Source of the DNA: Cryobacterium suzukii
Lineage (GTDB): Bacteria; Actinomycetota; Actinomycetes; Actinomycetales; Microbacteriaceae
Length of the DNA: 64,000 nt
Assembly (NCBI RefSeq): GCF_004403185.1
Contig: NZ_SOHJ01000007.1
Coordinates: 1-64,000 of the forward strand
Direction of reading: 5' to 3'
Under the pieces are notes generated by a model, which was not told the DNA's origin, ran no database searches, and worked only from the letters and a program-made list of their open reading frames with translations. Below are positions 32,336 to 56,039 of this stretch, piece by piece; the first letter of the stretch is position 1; every line of letters starts with the position of its first letter. A program made the translations under genes and the position numbers.

Positions 32336-33112
32336 TCAGACGGTGGGAATGATGCCGCCGTCCACTCGGAACTCTGCTCCGGTGATCCACTTCGCTCGAT
32401 CGGATGCGAGGAACGCGACCAGCTCGGCCGCGTCGCCGGCGGATCCGGGCTTCGCCATGGGGACCTTCAGAGCAAGGGCGAGCTCGCGCTGCATCTGCTC
32501 GAGGGAGATGCCTCGTTCGGCGGCCATCGTGCTGTGGTGCGCGATGGCGCCGGCCGTGGCGATGAATCCGGGCAAGACGTTGACCACCCGTACGCCCTTT
32601 GGCCCGACTTCGGCGGCGAGAGTGCGGCTGTAGGAGTTCATTGCCGCTTTGGACGCGGAGTACGACGACTGCTGTGGCTGGGGATAGTGGCTCGCGATCG
32701 AAGAAATGTGCACGACAACCCCTCGGCCGCGGGCGACCATGCCGGGAACGATTTCCCGGTCGAGGCGCACCGCTGCGAGCAGGTTCAACTCCAGGTCTTT
32801 CGACCACGCCTCGTCGGGGGTGTCTAAGGTGTCGCGAGCGCTGGATGCCGCACCGGCGTTGTCGACCAAAAGGTCAACCTCGATCTCGCTATCCGCAAGC
32901 CGCCGGGCGAGTGCGGAGACTCCTTCTGCGGTGCCGAGATCGGCCGCGAGCCAACGCACCCCGACCTCGGATTCGTTCGGAGCGGTCCGGGAGGCGATCC
33001 AGACGTCGGCGCCGCCGGCAGCGAGCCGAGACGCGATCGCGGCTCCCAGACCGCGCGAACCGCCTGTCACGAGGGTTGTGCGGCCGGAAAATTCGGTGGG
33101 GTCGATGCTCAT
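32336..33112 (-). CDS. Short-chain dehydrogenase/reductase
   Basis: The 258-residue SDR has the cofactor motif VTGGSRGLGAAIA (about residue 16), DNAGAASS (about 85) and the catalytic YxxxK in SSYSASKAAMNSYSR (about 155). Classical size. Divergent from an ArsR gene across a 31-bp perfect palindrome, which suggests repression by that ArsR protein. The substrate is unknown. Confidence 0.87.
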   Translation of the reverse strand: MSIDPTEFSGRTTLVTGGSRGLGAAIASRLAAGGADVWIASRTAPNESEVGVRWLAADLGTAEGVSALARRLADSEIEVDLLVDNAGAASSARDTLDTPDEAWSKDLELNLLAAVRLDREIVPGMVARGRGVVVHISSIASHYPQPQQSSYSASKAAMNSYSRTLAAEVGPKGVRVVNVLPGFIATAGAIAHHSTMAAERGISLEQMQRELALALKVPMAKPGSAGDAAELVAFLASDRAKWITGAEFRVDGGIIPTV

Positions 33113-33120
33113 AAGCGTCC

Positions 33121-33151
33121 AATGATTGATGTTCGTCGAACATCAATCATT
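33121..33151. promoter_or_regulatory. Perfect 31-bp operator palindrome between the SDR and ArsR genes
   Basis: AATGATTGATGTTCG and its exact reverse complement flank a single central T. It lies 9 bases upstream of the SDR start and 14 upstream of the ArsR start, and abuts the extended -10 box TGCTAGAAT for ArsR. ArsR/SmtB operators are usually such imperfect 12-2-12 repeats; this one is perfect. Confidence 0.75.
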
Positions 33152-33159
33152 GCTAGAAT
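33151..33159 (+). promoter_or_regulatory. Extended -10 promoter of the ArsR gene
   Basis: TGCTAGAAT is an extended -10 element, with TAGAAT at 33154-33159 six bases before the ATG, so the transcript is probably leaderless. The operator palindrome overlaps its upstream part. Confidence 0.55.
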
Positions 33160-39802: not shown

Positions 39803-40870
39803 TTGAATAAGCGCACCATCACCGCGAGCTCCTTCGCGCTCGCCCTGTTGAGCACCGTGGTATTGACCTCGTGCAGTGCCGAGACCGATACTGCCGCTTC
39901 CGGCGACGCTACTGGAACGCTCATCGTGTACACGAACTCCAACTCTGATGGGCGTGGCGAGTGGATCACGGAGCAGGCCTCCGCTGCCGGCCTCGACATC
40001 GAGATCGTGGGCCTCGGCGGCGCCGACCTCGCAAACCGGATCGTGGCCGAGAAGAATAACCCCGTGGGCGACGTGGTCTTCGGGTTAAACAACATGTTCT
40101 TCGAAACGCTCAAGGCCGAGGAGGCTGTCTCCGCGTACACACCGGCCTGGTCCGGCGAAGTCGACAGCACCGCCGGCGACGCGGAGGACGGCGTATTCTG
40201 GCCGTTGGTTGAACAGGCCATCGTCATGGCCTACGACACCAACACGGTCAGCGCAGCCGATGCCCCCACCGAGATCGCCGACCTCTGGGACGGCGACCAG
40301 TACACCGGTAACTACGAAGTGAACACTGCCCTCGGCCAGGCGACACCACAGCTGGTGCTCGCGGGCCTTCTCGCTCCCTACGCGGACGAGGACGGCGACC
40401 TGGGTATATCCGACGATGGCTGGGACCAGGTGCAGGCATACTTCGGGCACGGTTCGCCTGCTGTCGAGGGCACCGACCTGTATGCCCGGTTGATCCGCGG
40501 TGAGGTCGATTTCGGCGTGATTCCGAGCAGCGGTATCACGAGTCGTGATACCGAGTACGGCACGGTCACCGGAGTCATCAGCCCCGAAGACGGTGTTCCG
40601 TACGTCACAGAGCAGATCGCCGTAATTAACGGCACTCCGCGCCAGGAGCAGGCCGAAGAGTTCATTGACTGGTTCGGCAGCTCCGACGTGCAGGGCCAGT
40701 TTGCGGCCAAATTCGCCGCTTACCCCGTGAACACCGAGGCCCGCGCTCAGGCGCTCCCCGCGGTCGTCGAGCTGATCGAATCACTGCCCAAGCAAGACAT
40801 TGACTGGGCACTGACCCGGGAGCACATCGGCGAGTGGGTCGAGAAGACCGAGCTCGAGTACCTGCCCTAA
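39803..40870 (+). CDS. ABC transporter substrate-binding lipoprotein (Fe(III)/thiamine/phosphonate class)
   Basis: The 355-residue lipoprotein has signal and lipobox in VLTSCSAE (Cys at about 23). The mature part (GTLIVYTNSNSDGRGEWITE onward, GDVVFGLNNMFFETL) is in the Fe-binding/thiamine/2-aminoethylphosphonate binding-protein class. The TTG at 39803 is chosen because AAAGGAC lies six bases upstream. It is followed by an ATPase and a fused permease. Which of the three substrates it binds cannot be decided from the sequence. Confidence 0.85.
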   Translation: MNKRTITASSFALALLSTVVLTSCSAETDTAASGDATGTLIVYTNSNSDGRGEWITEQASAAGLDIEIVGLGGADLANRIVAEKNNPVGDVVFGLNNMFFETLKAEEAVSAYTPAWSGEVDSTAGDAEDGVFWPLVEQAIVMAYDTNTVSAADAPTEIADLWDGDQYTGNYEVNTALGQATPQLVLAGLLAPYADEDGDLGISDDGWDQVQAYFGHGSPAVEGTDLYARLIRGEVDFGVIPSSGITSRDTEYGTVTGVISPEDGVPYVTEQIAVINGTPRQEQAEEFIDWFGSSDVQGQFAAKFAAYPVNTEARAQALPAVVELIESLPKQDIDWALTREHIGEWVEKTELEYLP

Positions 40871-46221: not shown

Positions 46222-46248
46222 AGTTATCGGAGAGGGTCTCCGATAACT
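46222..46248. promoter_or_regulatory. Inverted repeat between the GMC and SDR genes
   Basis: AGTTATCGGAGA and TCTCCGATAACT are perfect 12-bp arms around GGG. It lies 179 bases upstream of the SDR start and 97 bases after the GMC stop, with no T run, so an operator is more likely than a terminator. Confidence 0.55.
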
Positions 46249-48819: not shown

Positions 48820-50130
48820 TTAGGCGTCTTTCAGGTCGATGCCCTTCGTTTCCTTCATGATGAAACAGGCGATCCCCGTGCACGCGCAGAGAACAATGAT
48901 GTACACGCTGGAGAGCCAGCCAACATCCAGCGAGTTTAGGAGGGCATTTAAGTAGGGAGCGGTGCCGCCGAACACAGCCGCTGAAATGGAATAGGCGAAA
49001 CCGATGGCCCTGGTGCGAATTCTGGTCGGAAAATTCTCAGAGAGGATGGCCGAAAGCAAAGCACCGGGTATGGCGACGATCACTAGAGCGATCGCCGAGG
49101 CGAGCAGGAGCGTCCACCCCGCCGAACCGATCATGGCAGTCAGGGGGAGGGAAAGCGCCATCATGAGAACGGCGAAGATCAGCATCATCGGGCGCCGACC
49201 GACTCGGTCGGAAACCCAGCCCCAGAGCGGCAGAGTTGCCAGGGCGATCAACTGGGCCGTCAGAGTCATCCAGAAGGCGGTGCCCGAGTCCATGCCTTTC
49301 TGGGTGATCGCGTACGTGGAGGCGTACGAGGTCCAGGTGTAATGAGCCGCTGTCACCCCAGACGTCATGGCGATCATCAGCACAATTGTTCGGGCAACCT
49401 GAGCTTTCGGGAGCGGGGCCGGCTTTTCGGTGCCGGCCGTGTGGTCGTCGAAGACCTCACTCTCGCCCATGTTGCGTCGCATGTAGAGAGCTGCAAGGGC
49501 GAGGAAAGCGCCGAGGATGAACGGGATACGCCATCCCCAGGCCGCCACACTGTCGTCGGGCATGATGCTGGTCACACCGCCAGCGACACCGTAGGCCAAT
49601 ACAGACCCGCCGAAGATGGCGATGAAGACGGCGCTGCCCCAGAGTCCGCGATGGCGCCGCGGCGCAATTTCGGCCACGTAGGTATAAGCGGTAGCGGTTT
49701 CTCCGCCGTGCGCAAACCCTTGAATGACCCTGACCGCGAGCAGCAGGAATGACGCCCAGGCGCCGGCATTCTGATACGTCGGCATTACAGCCATGGCCAG
49801 GCTTCCACCGGCCATCATGAGCATTGTTGTGACCAAGACGAATTTGCGCCCGCGCCGGTCGGCGACCAGGCCGAAGACGATGCCGCCAAGCGGTCGCATC
49901 AAGAAGCCGACGGCAAATACTCCCAGAGTGGAGAGGAGTCCGGAGATGGGATCTTCGGGGTTGAACATGGCAGCGGCGATGAACGGCGCAAAGACCGCGT
50001 AGGCGCTCCACTCATACCATTCGAGAACGTTGCCGAGAGTGCTGGCGATCAGGTCCCGCCGTTTCGACCGTTCGGCGACGCCGGTGGTTCCTCTGGCCGT
50101 GTCGTTGTCGGTCTCGTCAATCTGGGTCAT
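48820..50130 (-). CDS. MFS transporter, metabolite:proton symporter (MHS) type
   Basis: The 436-residue transporter has about 12 predicted transmembrane segments. The family signatures are GNVLEWYEWSAYAVFAPF (TM1), RPLGGIVFGLVADRRGRK (loop 2-3, about 75-95) and WGWRIPFILGAFLALAA (TM6 region). MHS members import organic acids, proline or betaine with protons. Last gene of the ligase-SDR-ACAD-kinase operon, after a 114-base gap. AAAGGAGC nine bases upstream of the ATG. Organic-acid import for that pathway is inferred. Confidence 0.88.
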   Translation of the reverse strand: MTQIDETDNDTARGTTGVAERSKRRDLIASTLGNVLEWYEWSAYAVFAPFIAAAMFNPEDPISGLLSTLGVFAVGFLMRPLGGIVFGLVADRRGRKFVLVTTMLMMAGGSLAMAVMPTYQNAGAWASFLLLAVRVIQGFAHGGETATAYTYVAEIAPRRHRGLWGSAVFIAIFGGSVLAYGVAGGVTSIMPDDSVAAWGWRIPFILGAFLALAALYMRRNMGESEVFDDHTAGTEKPAPLPKAQVARTIVLMIAMTSGVTAAHYTWTSYASTYAITQKGMDSGTAFWMTLTAQLIALATLPLWGWVSDRVGRRPMMLIFAVLMMALSLPLTAMIGSAGWTLLLASAIALVIVAIPGALLSAILSENFPTRIRTRAIGFAYSISAAVFGGTAPYLNALLNSLDVGWLSSVYIIVLCACTGIACFIMKETKGIDLKDA

Positions 50131-50244: not shown

Positions 50245-51345
50245 TCAGGATGCGACGGTTGAGCTGACGCCGGCAAAGTGCCGGGCACCGTCCAGTAGCC
50301 TCGGGACGCCTTCTTCCAGCGAGGGGCCGAAGCCGGTGTCGCCCGGTCGTTCACCCTTGAGCCAGCGGGTGTAAATGGCTTCGCAGAAGATGGATGCCTT
50401 CCACAGTGCCAGCGTCTGGTACCAGGGCAGCGCATCCAAATCCACATGCATCCGCTCGCGGTACCGCGAAATGAGCTGATCGCGGGTGAGATATCCAGGT
50501 TCGCGGGTCACGCTGGTCAATTCGAGCGGCGTAGGAAAACTTCCGGGTTCCGAGTAGGTTGCCGTGAGATAGCCAAGATCCGCCAACGGGTCACCCACCG
50601 TGGCCATTTCCCAGTCCAGAATGGCCATCACGCGTGCCGGGGACGACGGTTCGAACATCAGGTTGCCGGCCCGGAAGTCGCCGTGGATCACTGTGGCGGC
50701 CTGGCTGGTGGGAATATTGCGTTCCAGCCAGCCGCCGATGCTGACGACCGCGGGCAGATTCCGGGTGGTGTTCACCTCCCACAGGGCAGAAAAGCGCTGG
50801 ACCTGTCGCTTTAGGTAGCCTTCCGGGCGCCCGAACGCGGCCAGTTCTCCGGCGGAAACATCCACCTGATGTAGCTGCACCAGCGTGTCAACAACGGCGG
50901 CGCTGGTCGCCTCGCGCTGTGCCATGGTGCCGAGGTAGCCGGGGATTCGATCGGTGATAACGGTGCCGCCCAGGAAAGACATGATGTAAAAGGGAACACC
51001 GAGCAGCGACTCGTCTTCACAAATGGCGAGAATTTCGGGAACCGGCACCCCCTGTTTTCTAACCAGCTGTTGGATCCGAGCCTCACGAACCATGTCATGG
51101 GTGGATCGCGGCAGGGGCGGACGGGGGCCGCGGCGCAACACAAACACCTCGATGCCGCGCTGGAGACGATAGGTGACATTGGACTGGCCGTCACCAATCC
51201 GACACCAGGACAGCGGCCCGAAACCGAGCCCGTTGGCATCCATGAACTTTTCGACTGCGTCAAGGATGAGAAGCGGCGGCAAGCCCAGCCGCGCTGCGTC
51301 GGCGTGGTTGGCGACGACTTCGACGCCGTCGGGAGCGGTGTGCAT
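50245..51345 (-). CDS. APH-family kinase (LvaA/ACAD10-11-type phosphotransferase)
   Basis: The 366-residue protein has the aminoglycoside-phosphotransferase fold: the ATP-binding region ESNVTYRLQRG (GDGQSNVTYRL, about residue 55), VLRRGP, the catalytic HGDFRAGNLMF (about 222) and the metal-binding ILDWEMATVGDPLADLGY (about 245). APH kinases next to an acyl-CoA dehydrogenase phosphorylate 4-hydroxyacyl-CoA in levulinate and ACAD10/11 pathways. ATG 51345 is preferred over TTG 51348. Its start overlaps the dehydrogenase stop by one base. Confidence 0.85.
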   Translation of the reverse strand: MHTAPDGVEVVANHADAARLGLPPLLILDAVEKFMDANGLGFGPLSWCRIGDGQSNVTYRLQRGIEVFVLRRGPRPPLPRSTHDMVREARIQQLVRKQGVPVPEILAICEDESLLGVPFYIMSFLGGTVITDRIPGYLGTMAQREATSAAVVDTLVQLHQVDVSAGELAAFGRPEGYLKRQVQRFSALWEVNTTRNLPAVVSIGGWLERNIPTSQAATVIHGDFRAGNLMFEPSSPARVMAILDWEMATVGDPLADLGYLTATYSEPGSFPTPLELTSVTREPGYLTRDQLISRYRERMHVDLDALPWYQTLALWKASIFCEAIYTRWLKGERPGDTGFGPSLEEGVPRLLDGARHFAGVSSTVAS

Positions 51346-52613
51346 CAACGGATTCCTGCCAGCTCAGTGTTGAGATCAGCGCCGTGCAGATCGGAGCCGT
51401 GCACGTCGGCCAGGTACGGCTCGCCCGCATCGACAGCCCGCTTGCGCGCCGCCGAGGCGCGTCGGGAGATGGCCCATTTATGGGTTTCGTTGGCGCCGTC
51501 GTAGATCCGGAACGGGCGCACCTCGTTTAGGTAGGAGGCCAGGGGGAGCCCGTCTGAAACACCGTCGCCGCCGCAGAGCTGGATGGCGCGGTCGACCACC
51601 CGGAAGATCGCTTCCGAGCAGTGCACCTTTGCGATAGATGACATCGCGGATCCGGCCCGTGGATCCGTTGCGAGCAGCGCGGCGGTCTTCTCGATGATGG
51701 CATCGGAGGTTTCGATGTCGATCACGGACTGGGCGATCAGTTCCTGGGCAAGGCCCAGGTTCTTCATTGGGGAGCCGAACATTTCGCGGCGCTCGATTCG
51801 GTCCAGCGCAATGTCCAGCGAGCGCCGGGCCAGTCCGAGCCAGCGCATGCAGTGTGTGAGACGGGCTGGGCCAAGGCGCACTTGGGCATATTTGAAGCCG
51901 AGTCCGACGGCACCCAGTACCGCATCATCCGCCACAAAGCAGTCGTCGAGATAAATGTGGGGATGACCGCCAGCGATGGCACGGTCCATGGTGTGGATGC
52001 TTTCGCCGAGCCGGATGCCTGTGTTGTCGAGATCAACCAGGAACATGGTGGCACCGGTCGGAGCGTCTCCGACAGCCTCGGTGCGGGCCATCACGATGCA
52101 AAAGGCTGCGCCGTCGGCGCCACTTGTGAATCGTTTGTGACCATTTATGGACCATCCGCCGTCGACCTTTGTCGCCTCGGTGAGCAGGGCGGCCGGATCT
52201 GAACCGGCGCCAGGGTGCGGCTCGGTCATTCCGAAGCAGGACCGCGACGTGCCGGCGGCCAGGGGCACAAGGTAGCGCTGCTTCTGTGCCTCCGTGGCGA
52301 TCAGATTTAGCATGTGCATATTGCCTTCGTCGGGCGCCATGCAGTTGAGCGCGGACGCGCCGATCGGGGAATATCCGGCCTCTTGAAGGATCGCGGACCA
52401 GTGCTGAATGGGGACGCCCTGGCCGCCGAATTCCTTAGGGACGTGTGGGGCAAAGACATTGGCGGCCTTTGCTGCTGCTTGGAGTCGGTCCCGGGTGGAC
52501 TGGCCCAGGCGCTCGCCCGGCCTCGGCTCGGCGGGAATGACCGTGCTGCGGATGAATTCGCGGGTACGGATTCGCAAATCTTCGATATCGGCGGGCAGTG
52601 ACTCGGTGCTCAT
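51345..52613 (-). CDS. Acyl-CoA dehydrogenase (LvaC/ACAD11-like)
   Basis: The 422-residue flavoenzyme has the ACAD signatures CFGMTEPHPGAGSDPAALLT (about 140, FAD/substrate) and INGHKRFTSGADGAAFCIV. At the position of the catalytic Glu of medium-chain dehydrogenases (YEGT) it has Asp in FRIYDGANETHKW (about 380). The residue identity in the homologous LvaC/ACAD11 enzymes should be checked by alignment. The APH kinase follows with a one-base overlap, mirroring the kinase-dehydrogenase fusion of ACAD10/11. AAAGGAAA nine bases before the ATG. Confidence 0.88.
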   Translation of the reverse strand: MSTESLPADIEDLRIRTREFIRSTVIPAEPRPGERLGQSTRDRLQAAAKAANVFAPHVPKEFGGQGVPIQHWSAILQEAGYSPIGASALNCMAPDEGNMHMLNLIATEAQKQRYLVPLAAGTSRSCFGMTEPHPGAGSDPAALLTEATKVDGGWSINGHKRFTSGADGAAFCIVMARTEAVGDAPTGATMFLVDLDNTGIRLGESIHTMDRAIAGGHPHIYLDDCFVADDAVLGAVGLGFKYAQVRLGPARLTHCMRWLGLARRSLDIALDRIERREMFGSPMKNLGLAQELIAQSVIDIETSDAIIEKTAALLATDPRAGSAMSSIAKVHCSEAIFRVVDRAIQLCGGDGVSDGLPLASYLNEVRPFRIYDGANETHKWAISRRASAARKRAVDAGEPYLADVHGSDLHGADLNTELAGIR

Positions 52614-52655: not shown

Positions 52656-53438
52656 TTAAGCGGTGCCGCCGGCCGCGAGCAGGCCGCCATCAAGGTTGAT
52701 GACCTGACCGGTGATCCAGGCCGAATCTGAGGACGCGAGAAAGGCAACGGTGGCGGCAATATCCTCCGGGTTGCCAAGGCGTCCCAGAGGATATCTCGCG
52801 GCCACTTCCGCCTCCTTGCCTTCGTAGAGGGCCTGAGCGAATTGCGTCTTGACCACCGCCGGTGCAACCGCGTTCACTCGTATCTTCGGTCCCATTTCGA
52901 CGGCGAGGGTGCGGGTCAGATGCGCTATTGCGGCCTTGGTCACGCCATAGAAACCGATGCCCGGTGCCGGTGTCTGCCCGGTGACCGAAGACACGTTAAT
53001 GACGGTACCGCCGCGGCCGGCGAAATCCAGCGCGACGTGGCGGTAAGTATCCTGGATCCAGGCCAGGGTGCCGAAGACGTTCACCTCGGTGATCTTGCGC
53101 GCGGCGGACAGATCTAGATCCATAACCGAGCCGTAGACGGGGTTGATGCCCGCATTGTTGACGAGGACGTCCAGCTGGCCGAATGTTTCGGCGACGGCGT
53201 TGAGCACCTCGACGCGGTGGTCCGGATCGTGGGCTTTGCCGGCGAGGGGGATCACAGATCCTTTCGGAAACTGGGCGGCCGCATCGTTTAACGCCTCGGC
53301 GTTACGGGCGGTGATACAGACCCGGGCGCCCTCCGCCACCAGCCGCAAGGCGATGGCCAGTCCGATACCGCGACTGGCGCCCGTGACGATGGCCGTCTTG
53401 CCCTCAAGGCGGTGCGCTTGGATGGGTTGTTCGCTCAT
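52656..53438 (-). CDS. SDR oxidoreductase (LvaD-like)
   Basis: The 260-residue classical SDR has TGASRGIGLAIALRL (about residue 17), NNAGINPVYGSV (about 93) and YxxxK in GFYGVTKAAIAHLTR (about 165). It overlaps the ligase gene by four bases. In the lva pathway this member reduces a 4-oxoacyl-CoA to a 4-hydroxyacyl-CoA; that role here is inferred from the operon. Confidence 0.85.
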   Translation of the reverse strand: MSEQPIQAHRLEGKTAIVTGASRGIGLAIALRLVAEGARVCITARNAEALNDAAAQFPKGSVIPLAGKAHDPDHRVEVLNAVAETFGQLDVLVNNAGINPVYGSVMDLDLSAARKITEVNVFGTLAWIQDTYRHVALDFAGRGGTVINVSSVTGQTPAPGIGFYGVTKAAIAHLTRTLAVEMGPKIRVNAVAPAVVKTQFAQALYEGKEAEVAARYPLGRLGNPEDIAATVAFLASSDSAWITGQVINLDGGLLAAGGTA

Positions 53439-55186
53439 AATTTGTCTTTCTGGGACGGTACGCCCTGGGCTGCCGTGTTTTCATCACGGAGCTCCTGGCG
53501 GCGAATTTTTCCGGTCTGTGTCTTGGGTAGGTCGTCGATGATGTGGACGATGCGGGGGTACTTGTAAGCTGCGAGGCGCTCTTTGGTGAATGCGATGAGC
53601 TCGGTTGGAGTGGCCGATAGACCTGATTTCAGGGACACGAAAGCGACGACGGTTTCGCCGCGGTAGTCATCCGCCTGGCCAATCACAGCGGCCTCATGGA
53701 CTGCGGGATGTTCATACAGCGCGTCCTCGACCTCGCGGGGCCAGACCTTATACCCGGAGACGTTGATCTGGTCTTTGAGCCGGTCCACTAGATAAATCCA
53801 GCCTTGTGCGTCGATGATGGCCACGTCGCCGGTGCGGAACCTGCCTCCGGGCATTGCGTGGGAGGTGGCATCCGGATTATTCCAGTAACCCGGGATAATT
53901 TGGGGACCAGATAATTCCAGCTCACCCTGGGTGCCCGGGGGAACGGATTGACCATTCTGGTCGATGACTCTGGCTACAACGAGCGGTAACGAAATGCCGA
54001 TAGACAGCGTGCCGCTGGAGGCGTCGACCGGCGCTTCGGCACCCGGAGGAACGGCAATTACACCGGACGTGCTTTCGGTTAATCCATAGGCATTGTGGAT
54101 GTAGACGCCGAAGCGCGTTTTGAAGCGTTCCACGGTGGCCGGCGGGATTGGCGCCCCGCCGGAATACAAAGTCTTGACGGCGGCAAAATGGCTGGCATTG
54201 GCATGCGGAAGCGCCAAAATCGCGTTAAACACGGTAATCGAGCCGATGGTATAGCTGACCCTATGCTCGGCGAAGGCCTCCAACACGACATCGGGGTCAA
54301 AGCGGCCCGTAAAAACCAGGGTTGTGTCGGTGAATAGAGAGATCGCAGCGTTAATTACGGCGCCAGTGATATGAAACAGTGGGGCCACGGCCATGACGAC
54401 GTCACCGGGGACCAGCCGTGCAAATCGGGCAAACGTCGTGGCGACGGCCAGGACGTTTTCGTGGGTGTTCATGGCGCCCTTTGGCGGCCCGGTCGTACCA
54501 GAGGTATAGGTCAACAGCGCCACGTCGTCGCGGGTCAGATCAATGTCAGCGGGTCGCAAGCCGTCGAATTCGCGAATGAGAGCCGCGACGTCCCCATCAA
54601 CCGAAGCCACCGGACGCGCCGTCATGTCACAGCTACGCGGATCGTTTCGGGTTTGAAAGTCACGTGCAGAGGTGCTGATGAGCCAGCGAGCCGTGCCTCC
54701 GGCAAGCGTTTGACGAGTTTCCGACACAGCGGTATCGGCACAAATAATACCGATTGCACCCGAGTCGTCAACGAGGCGACGCAGTTCTCGGCGTTTGTAC
54801 ATGGGGTTCAGCAGCAGTGCGGTCGCCCCCAGTTTCCAGAGGGCCAGCAGGGCAAGCGCGTAGTGGGGGGTGTTCTGGAGGTAGATGCCCACCCGTGCAC
54901 CGCGAATTGTGCCGCGGGCCACGAGCGCTACAGCGAGAGCGTCGGAGGCACGGTCGACTTCGGCGGCAGTCATCCTGCCATCGAAATAGCGTAATGCGAC
55001 GCGCTCCGGATTGGCGGCGACGCGGGCCTTCCACGCCTCTACGGTCGACTCGTACCGCAATCCTGCGTGTACTTTCCTGCTCAGCAGGTCTGGTGCGGTC
55101 TGAGAATTCTCTCCGGTGTTGATCCCAGAACGACTCTGTACGGACGAGCCGATCTCACAACGGTTGGTCACAGATGAACGAGCCAC
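53435..55186 (-). CDS. Acyl-CoA ligase (LvaE-like)
   Basis: The 583-residue adenylate-forming enzyme has TSGTTGPPKGAMNTHENV (about 235), NAYGLTESTSG (about 355), RFRTGDVAIIDAQGW (about 445), the hinge DRLKDQINVSGYKVWPREVE and the catalytic Lys in TQTGKIRRQEL near the end. The first 45 residues are a polar extension. First gene of the five-gene operon, activating the imported acid. Divergent from TetR across a 38-bp palindrome. Confidence 0.88.
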   Translation of the reverse strand: MARSSVTNRCEIGSSVQSRSGINTGENSQTAPDLLSRKVHAGLRYESTVEAWKARVAANPERVALRYFDGRMTAAEVDRASDALAVALVARGTIRGARVGIYLQNTPHYALALLALWKLGATALLLNPMYKRRELRRLVDDSGAIGIICADTAVSETRQTLAGGTARWLISTSARDFQTRNDPRSCDMTARPVASVDGDVAALIREFDGLRPADIDLTRDDVALLTYTSGTTGPPKGAMNTHENVLAVATTFARFARLVPGDVVMAVAPLFHITGAVINAAISLFTDTTLVFTGRFDPDVVLEAFAEHRVSYTIGSITVFNAILALPHANASHFAAVKTLYSGGAPIPPATVERFKTRFGVYIHNAYGLTESTSGVIAVPPGAEAPVDASSGTLSIGISLPLVVARVIDQNGQSVPPGTQGELELSGPQIIPGYWNNPDATSHAMPGGRFRTGDVAIIDAQGWIYLVDRLKDQINVSGYKVWPREVEDALYEHPAVHEAAVIGQADDYRGETVVAFVSLKSGLSATPTELIAFTKERLAAYKYPRIVHIIDDLPKTQTGKIRRQELRDENTAAQGVPSQKDKL

Positions 55187-55227
55187 GGCAGCCGCCCCCC
55201 TCCGGCATCGTCGCCGGAATTGACTTT

Positions 55228-55265
55228 ACTAACTCCTACCGAGCGATCGCTCGGTAGGAGTTAGT
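55228..55265. promoter_or_regulatory. Perfect 38-bp TetR operator palindrome
   Basis: Two exact 19-bp arms meet between 55246 and 55247; the core is CCGAGCGATCGCTCGG and the outer ends are ACTAACTCC and GGAGTTAGT. It lies 42 bases upstream of the ligase start and 69 upstream of the TetR start. It resembles known TetR operators controlling CoA-dependent catabolism, such as PaaR-type sites with ACCGnnCGnnCGGT. Confidence 0.85.
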
Positions 55266-55334
55266 CTGGAGTAGACGTCATCATCTGTCAAGACAGACAA
55301 TGGCAATCTGGCATTAACAGGTGAAGGAGTATTC

Positions 55335-56039
55335 GTGAAAGTTGAGACTGCGAAAAAAGTCGAGGATGCGGCCGCGTGGCGCAAATACTCCGAAAACGTG
55401 CTGCCACCCCTGCTGCAAGCGGCTCTCGATAGCTTTGTGGAGCACGGATATCACGGCACGACAATTCGCACAGTGGCCGCTCGGGCCAAGCTCTCCGTAC
55501 CGGGCCTGTATCACCACTACGCCTCCAAGCAGGCACTGCTCGTGGCGATCGTTCAGTTTGCGATGACGGATTTATTGGTTAGGAGCGAAGATGCCGTAGC
55601 GGAGGCAGGTTCTTCGGTGGAGGAACAGTTTCGACTTCTCATCGAATGTCTGGCGCTCTTTCACGCTCATCGCAGTGAGCTCGCCTTCATTGCGGCAAGT
55701 GAGATCCGAAGTTTGGAAGGCGAGTCGCGAACGGCGCACATCAAATCCCGCGATAAACAGCAGCAAATGGTGGACGACATCATCAATCAGGGTATGCGGG
55801 AGGGGGTCTTTGACGCGGAGCATCCCAAGGACACCAGTCGAGCCATCGTTACTATGTGTACCGGTATTGCGCAGTGGTACCGCCGTGACGGTGAGCTTTC
55901 GCCCGAAGAGCTGGCCGTCAGGTACGCCAACATCGCCCGGATGACTTTGGGTGTTGGCCCAGGCTCTCGAAGAGAGAGTGTGCTCACTGCGCCCACGCCT
56001 GTGCTAACCGATGCGCGAGGCAGGCCAGACCGCGGCTGA
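55335..56039 (+). CDS. TetR-family transcriptional regulator
   Basis: The 234-residue regulator has the TetR HTH (GYHGTTIRTVAARAKLSVPG then LYHHYASKQALL, about residues 36-68) and a large C-terminal domain with HAHRSELAFIAASEIRSLEG, a sub-family seen for acyl-CoA-sensing repressors. GAAGGAG lies five bases before the GTG. It is divergent from the CoA-ligase operon and probably represses it; the inducer may be a CoA ester (inference). Confidence 0.87.
   Translation: MKVETAKKVEDAAAWRKYSENVLPPLLQAALDSFVEHGYHGTTIRTVAARAKLSVPGLYHHYASKQALLVAIVQFAMTDLLVRSEDAVAEAGSSVEEQFRLLIECLALFHAHRSELAFIAASEIRSLEGESRTAHIKSRDKQQQMVDDIINQGMREGVFDAEHPKDTSRAIVTMCTGIAQWYRRDGELSPEELAVRYANIARMTLGVGPGSRRESVLTAPTPVLTDARGRPDRG

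Follow-up and report, generated by a model that had tools for sequence, protein, structure and literature searches.

The 38-bp perfect palindrome between a tetR gene and a divergently oriented catabolic operon in Cryobacterium suzukii very probably holds, in its inner 18 to 22 bp, the operator of the adjacent TetR_C_24 repressor of that operon; the inner 18 bp (55238-55255) are, on comparative grounds, almost certainly an operator of the TetR_C_24 regulator. "The window" below is the whole 64,000-nucleotide stretch of DNA that was analysed. The features of the intergenic region are as follows:

55228..55265, no strand: 38-bp perfect palindrome ACTAACTCCTACCGAGCGATCGCTCGGTAGGAGTTAGT, shared unchanged by three close Cryobacterium relatives, a fourth having one mismatch
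55228..55237, no strand: left outer arm, mirroring the right arm solely in the window's close clade
55236..55257, no strand: 22-bp stretch CTACCGAGCGATCGCTCGGTAG, in which one central base varies and the rest is invariant at ten Cryobacterium loci
55238..55255, no strand: conserved core ACCGAGCGATCGCTCGGT of the predicted operator, family consensus ACCGAnCGnnCGnTCGGT, conserved across genera
55263..55268, minus strand: predicted -10 element CAGACT, 17-bp spacer, overlapping the right arm of the palindrome (conservation in a ten-locus alignment)
55286..55291, minus strand: -35 element TTGACA of the predicted catabolic-operon promoter, conserved across divergent loci, in invariant columns
55335..56039, plus strand: TetR family regulator (TetR_N + TetR_C_24, Pfam), GTG start with AGGTGAAGGAG upstream

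The palindrome and the conservation of its core

All 38 bp (19 pairs) equal their own reverse complement, and the statement in a preliminary description that this is the longest perfect palindrome in the window is borne out, the next longest of even length having 18 bp. Such a length is far beyond chance: the longest palindrome was 14-24 bp across 100 first-order Markov simulations of the window, and 7.6e-7 perfect palindromes of at least 38 bp are expected per 64 kb from base composition. Its flanking genes are that of the CoA ligase (53435-55186, minus strand) and the divergent tetR (55335-56039, plus strand). It is the longest yet not the sole striking palindrome in the window, because there is also a 33-bp odd one at 33120-33152 (16-bp arms, 1-bp centre, CAATGATTGATGTTCG-T-CGAACATCAATCATTG); this sits directly upstream of an SDR gene (32336-33112, minus strand) and is another candidate regulator site. 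Further inverted repeats with arms of 11-12 bp occur at 40531-40553 and 46222-46248 (CGGTATCACGAGTCGTGATACCG; AGTTATCGGAGAGGGTCTCCGATAACT).

The regulator matches TetR_N with 57 bits and TetR_C_24 with 110 bits, both above the gathering cut-offs. Its relatives were drawn from 84,980 species genomes, 57 genus genomes, about 400 class genomes and about 400 order genomes; the closest are from Cryobacterium species, and the genus-level search returned the same contigs as the search of the species genomes. The consensus ACCGAnCGnnCGnTCGGT recurs adjoining orthologous TetR genes in many actinobacterial genera, so that a conserved palindrome accompanies the regulator gene across species, as befits a TetR operator. 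In its refined form this consensus has 35 exact sites in 119 kb near TetR orthologs vs 1 in 771 kb far from them, and that single far site sits in a locus deliberately lengthened to take it in. The loose pattern ACCGnnCGnnCGnnCGGT gave a site no more than 500 bp away in 34 of the 67 loci whose TetR has at least 43% identity, and over the same loci 36 sites in 107 kb near TetR vs 1 in 690 kb elsewhere; these locus counts are not fully independent, because some loci share a genome or come from close species.

The arrangement of the genes varies around the core. In most loci it lies between the divergent tetR and operon; in three (L014, L018, L021) it is found between tetR and a downstream ACAD (acyl-CoA dehydrogenase) gene, and in L103 it flanks tetR on both sides. 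In genome G322 (locus L128) the exact 18-mer stands some 27 bp upstream of the ACAD gene that heads an ACAD-kinase-SDR operon; this operon is unlinked to tetR, the TetR ortholog being encoded on another contig. The exact 18-mer was found in 3 of 395 class genomes, every time at such an operon or at tetR. Eight further genomes carry forms in which the central bases differ. For seven of them the fetched stretches contained neither such an operon nor TetR; in the eighth (G182), about 7 kb separate the site from TetR.

Among TetR relatives with 43-60% identity, roughly half show no exact site within 500 bp; in many of these an N-terminal XRE domain is fused to the TetR, and the only versions of the operator are ones with one or two mismatches lying further upstream. 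The XRE/HTH_3 domain is in frame on the TetR in L011, L015, L017, L020, L022, L023, L026-L032 and others, making a double-HTH regulator, and was confirmed with Pfam for L015 and L028. Two variations on the site itself were also seen: Streptomyces sennicomposti has two tandem operator cores 44 bp apart upstream of its TetR ortholog (L006:5803-5864), and at L150:5843 and L151:5839 TGCGAGCGATCGCTCGGT replaces ACCG..., one altered half-site being common to both.

The genome of C. suzukii has a single strong site. In a genome scan, a check suggested in the preliminary description, the central 22 bp turned up once in 3.46 Mb, also when three mismatches were tolerated. The analysis kept to strict matches, because a one-mismatch search with the loose motif performed no better than the control (62 matches vs 66). 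The second-best match in this genome, C10:112647, is located within a 319-aa reading frame and was put down to chance. Neither the core sequence nor a matching operator for this TetR group appeared in the open-access papers searched, a search that most subscription papers lie outside.

The predicted operon promoter, the outer arms and the number of dimers

In 21 of 26 divergent loci the operon strand has an exact TTGACA upstream of the core, at a distance of 26-41 bp and mostly of 29-31 bp; L155, with an exact TTGACA 55 bp from the core, was excluded from this count. With the -10 element given above, transcription of the operon would begin near 55256 (minus strand), where the operator core has its edge, so that a repressor sitting on the core would mask the start site. 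Under its stricter rules, a generic sigma-70 scan returned no promoter above threshold in the region, missing the operon promoter because its -10 element is weak. No convincing promoter was found for tetR. The plus-strand TTAGTCT was considered as its -10 element and rejected, since the conserved TTGACA shows it to be the reverse of the operon -10. Around the -35 box of the operon there is also a 14-bp near-palindrome (55284-55297, TCTGTCAAGACAGA), which is present in the close clade.

Alignment of the ten Cryobacterium loci separates the core from the arms. What stays invariant is the 22-bp CTACCGAGCGAnCGCTCGGTAG, the greater part of the -10 region, and TGTCAAG, within which the -35 element lies. 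The right arm is conserved because the -10 region lies in it; the left arm varies, and mirrors the right one only in the window and in four loci (L002-L005), with one mismatch in L005. As judged from this alignment, the outer arms lie outside the conserved operator. The left arm looks like a derived copy, and since its mirroring is limited to the close clade, the 38-bp symmetry would be a derived feature of one clade. It arose perhaps through hairpin-templated repair or copying; alternatively, selection for two like start regions would explain it. The length of a perfect palindrome can thus overstate the size of a binding site, and here conservation trims 38 bp to 18-22 bp.

How many TetR dimers the operator would hold is a question within the reading of the inner 18-22 bp as operator. 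A single dimer bound to the 18-bp core in the ordinary mode is a serious possibility that falls somewhat short of probable: the two-fold symmetry of the core is perfect or nearly so, and 18 bp is close to the 15-17 bp of single-dimer sites, but the centres of the ACCG and CGGT blocks are 14 bp apart, vs the 10-11 bp or so implied by a helix spacing of 31-38 A (PMC4150764). From the spacing arithmetic, two dimers on the 18-bp core by itself are plausible. Two overlapping 14-bp sites, each a single mismatch away from ACCGnnCGnnCGGT, can be recognised in the core at a 4-bp offset (about 137 degrees), and angles of 130-145 degrees are reported for QacR, CgmR, SlmA and CprB, four of five two-dimer complexes (PMC4150764). 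The overlapping-site geometry and 4-bp offset of the QacR and CprB two-dimer operators are therefore possible in the window core, a likeness in geometry alone.

A reading that goes further, in line with the two dimers suggested in the preliminary description, treats the whole 38 bp as one long operator, with two or more TetR dimers needed and the arms making essential contacts; we consider it unlikely. The full 19-pair symmetry in the window and three close relatives would fit it, as would the overlapping 14-bp sites and the range of 22-32 bp for dimer-of-dimer TetR sites as compared with 15-17 bp for single dimers (PMC4150764). Outside the close clade, however, no relative mirrors the arms while the 18-22 bp core is kept, the left arm is mismatched at one position in a close relative, and the conserved part fits within 18-22 bp. 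The argument from the 38-bp length to two dimers fails because the outer arms are not conserved in relatives.

The catabolic operon and related regulatory sites

Reading leftward on the minus strand, the operon consists of ligase, SDR, acyl-CoA dehydrogenase, APH-fold kinase and MFS symporter genes:

53435..55186, minus strand: acyl-CoA ligase (AMP-binding), predicted LvaE-like role
52656..53438, minus strand: SDR oxidoreductase, predicted LvaD-like role
51345..52613, minus strand: atypical acyl-CoA dehydrogenase of ACAD10/11-LvaC type, catalytic Asp372, R246/H254/R257
50245..51348, minus strand: APH-fold kinase of ACAD10/11-LvaA type, HGDFRAGN catalytic loop (Asp224, Asn229)
48820..50130, minus strand: MFS metabolite:H+ symporter family, probable substrate uptake; several relatives have a homologous gene after the operon

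The dehydrogenase matches one domain of ACAD11 and the kinase the other. Residues R246, H254, R257 and Asp372 of the dehydrogenase correspond to R626, H634, R637 and D753 of mouse ACAD11, the last being the catalytic Asp in place of Glu (diagnostic residues from PMC12440821), as in the ACAD10/11-LvaC type. In the kinase, HGDFRAGN, VREARIQ and GYLKRQV align to ACAD11, so that the HGDF...N loop (mouse D220, N225) and the two arginines thought to hold CoA are kept (PMC12440821), as in the ACAD10/11-LvaA type. These diagnostic residues are common to the window enzymes, mammalian ACAD10 and ACAD11, and the Lva operon of Pseudomonas putida (kinase LvaA, ACAD LvaC, LvaD, LvaE), in which LvaA and LvaC carry out the same two steps in levulinate breakdown (PMC12440821, PMC11342911). 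Ligase, SDR, kinase and ACAD stand in one operon, as in the Lva system; no LvaB-like gene was recognised in the window operon, which has a TetR regulator where the Lva operon has LvaR. Regulation through LvaR is sigma-54 dependent. Given the matches in residues and domains to ACAD11 and Lva, we read the operon as a 4-keto/4-hydroxy acid pathway; it probably breaks down 4-hydroxy or 4-keto acids.

Among proteins of solved structure, the nearest sequence relatives of the window TetR are PDB 3vpr (the top match), given in the source table as a TetR regulator only and which we take to be PfmR, followed by KstR2, a CoA-ester sensor, and MbdR. The last two differ from the window TetR in having other operators and other substrates; MbdR responds to 3-methylbenzoyl-CoA (PMC4424350). 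PfmR (TTHB023 of Thermus thermophilus), which represses genes of fatty-acid type metabolism, has a similar published site, TACCGACCGNTNGGTN (PMC7022988), with TACCGA-CG in common with the window operator, but the two regulators have low sequence similarity, the PfmR site is shorter and less symmetric, and the operon is another one.

The window site had also been likened to PaaR-type sites, a comparison that holds for the letters of the half-sites (ACCG...CGGT) and the phased CG steps, and breaks down on spacing, which is 4 bp longer, and on the absence of a paa operon. The PaaR-type site of Burkholderia cenocepacia, ACCGACCGGTCGGT, is 14-15 bp long, and overlaps the core promoter, as predicted for the window site; the authors who reported it compare it with the QacR operator and call it a dual overlapping inverted repeat (PMC2770484). 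Like the regulator proposed here, PaaR is a TetR repressor of a CoA-ester pathway, and its sites have CG steps every 4 bp. The centre of the PaaR site is CG, whereas the window core has AT at its centre and, at 18 bp, departs from the 14-bp ACCGnnCGnnCGGT spacing, with one mismatch in each 14-bp sub-site. We conclude that the window site is of the same general kind as the PaaR and PfmR sites but longer. That it belongs to PaaR itself, with an operon degrading phenylacetate, is very improbable in spite of the half-site letters shared with the B. cenocepacia sites (PMC2770484): the spacing is off by 4 bp, none of the five genes (ligase-SDR-ACAD-kinase-MFS) is a paa gene, and the ACAD/kinase pair has ACAD10/11-LvaC/LvaA residues.

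A transcription terminator or RNA hairpin is likewise very improbable. Although a perfect inverted repeat would fold once transcribed, this one lies between divergent genes with neither a loop nor a T run, another stem (55201-55218) gives the sole terminator-like match of the region, and conservation of the motif tracks TetR even where it sits between co-oriented genes.

A model of regulation and its significance

In the reading we prefer, with the operator in the inner 18-22 bp, the leftward operon promoter would be formed by TTGACA (55286-55291) and CAGACT (55263-55268), with the start at the edge of the core. Because the core lies right downstream of this conserved promoter, TetR bound there should block initiation of the ligase-SDR-ACAD-kinase-MFS operon. 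A CoA thioester of the pathway, most likely a 4-keto- or 4-hydroxyacyl-CoA, would release TetR; we infer this induction by CoA esters. Judging by the position of the site, TetR probably represses its own gene as well. The earlier proposal that the site controls both divergent units is thus upheld for the catabolic operon, through its conserved promoter, while for tetR the argument is one of position. The label of a "ready biosensor" is premature, the site and its TetR together being a candidate sensor.

Tentatively, a wider picture may be drawn, to which we give somewhat less than even weight: an undescribed TetR_C_24 subfamily, some of its members XRE-fused, would govern split ACAD10/11-type 4-hydroxyacyl-CoA catabolism across the Actinobacteria through an extended operator with four CG steps, and one Cryobacterium clade would have extended this operator to a perfect palindrome of 38 bp through a copy of the -10 arm, so that the start region would be the same for both divergent promoters.

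From its sequence conservation, we regard this as a genuine and well conserved TetR operator, ordinary in kind and useful in detail. It supplies a TetR group with a well supported operator consensus, a predicted promoter and a candidate pathway, and it makes this TetR a candidate sensor of levulinate or of other 4-hydroxy acids, compounds relevant to biomass conversion and to ACAD10/11 biology.
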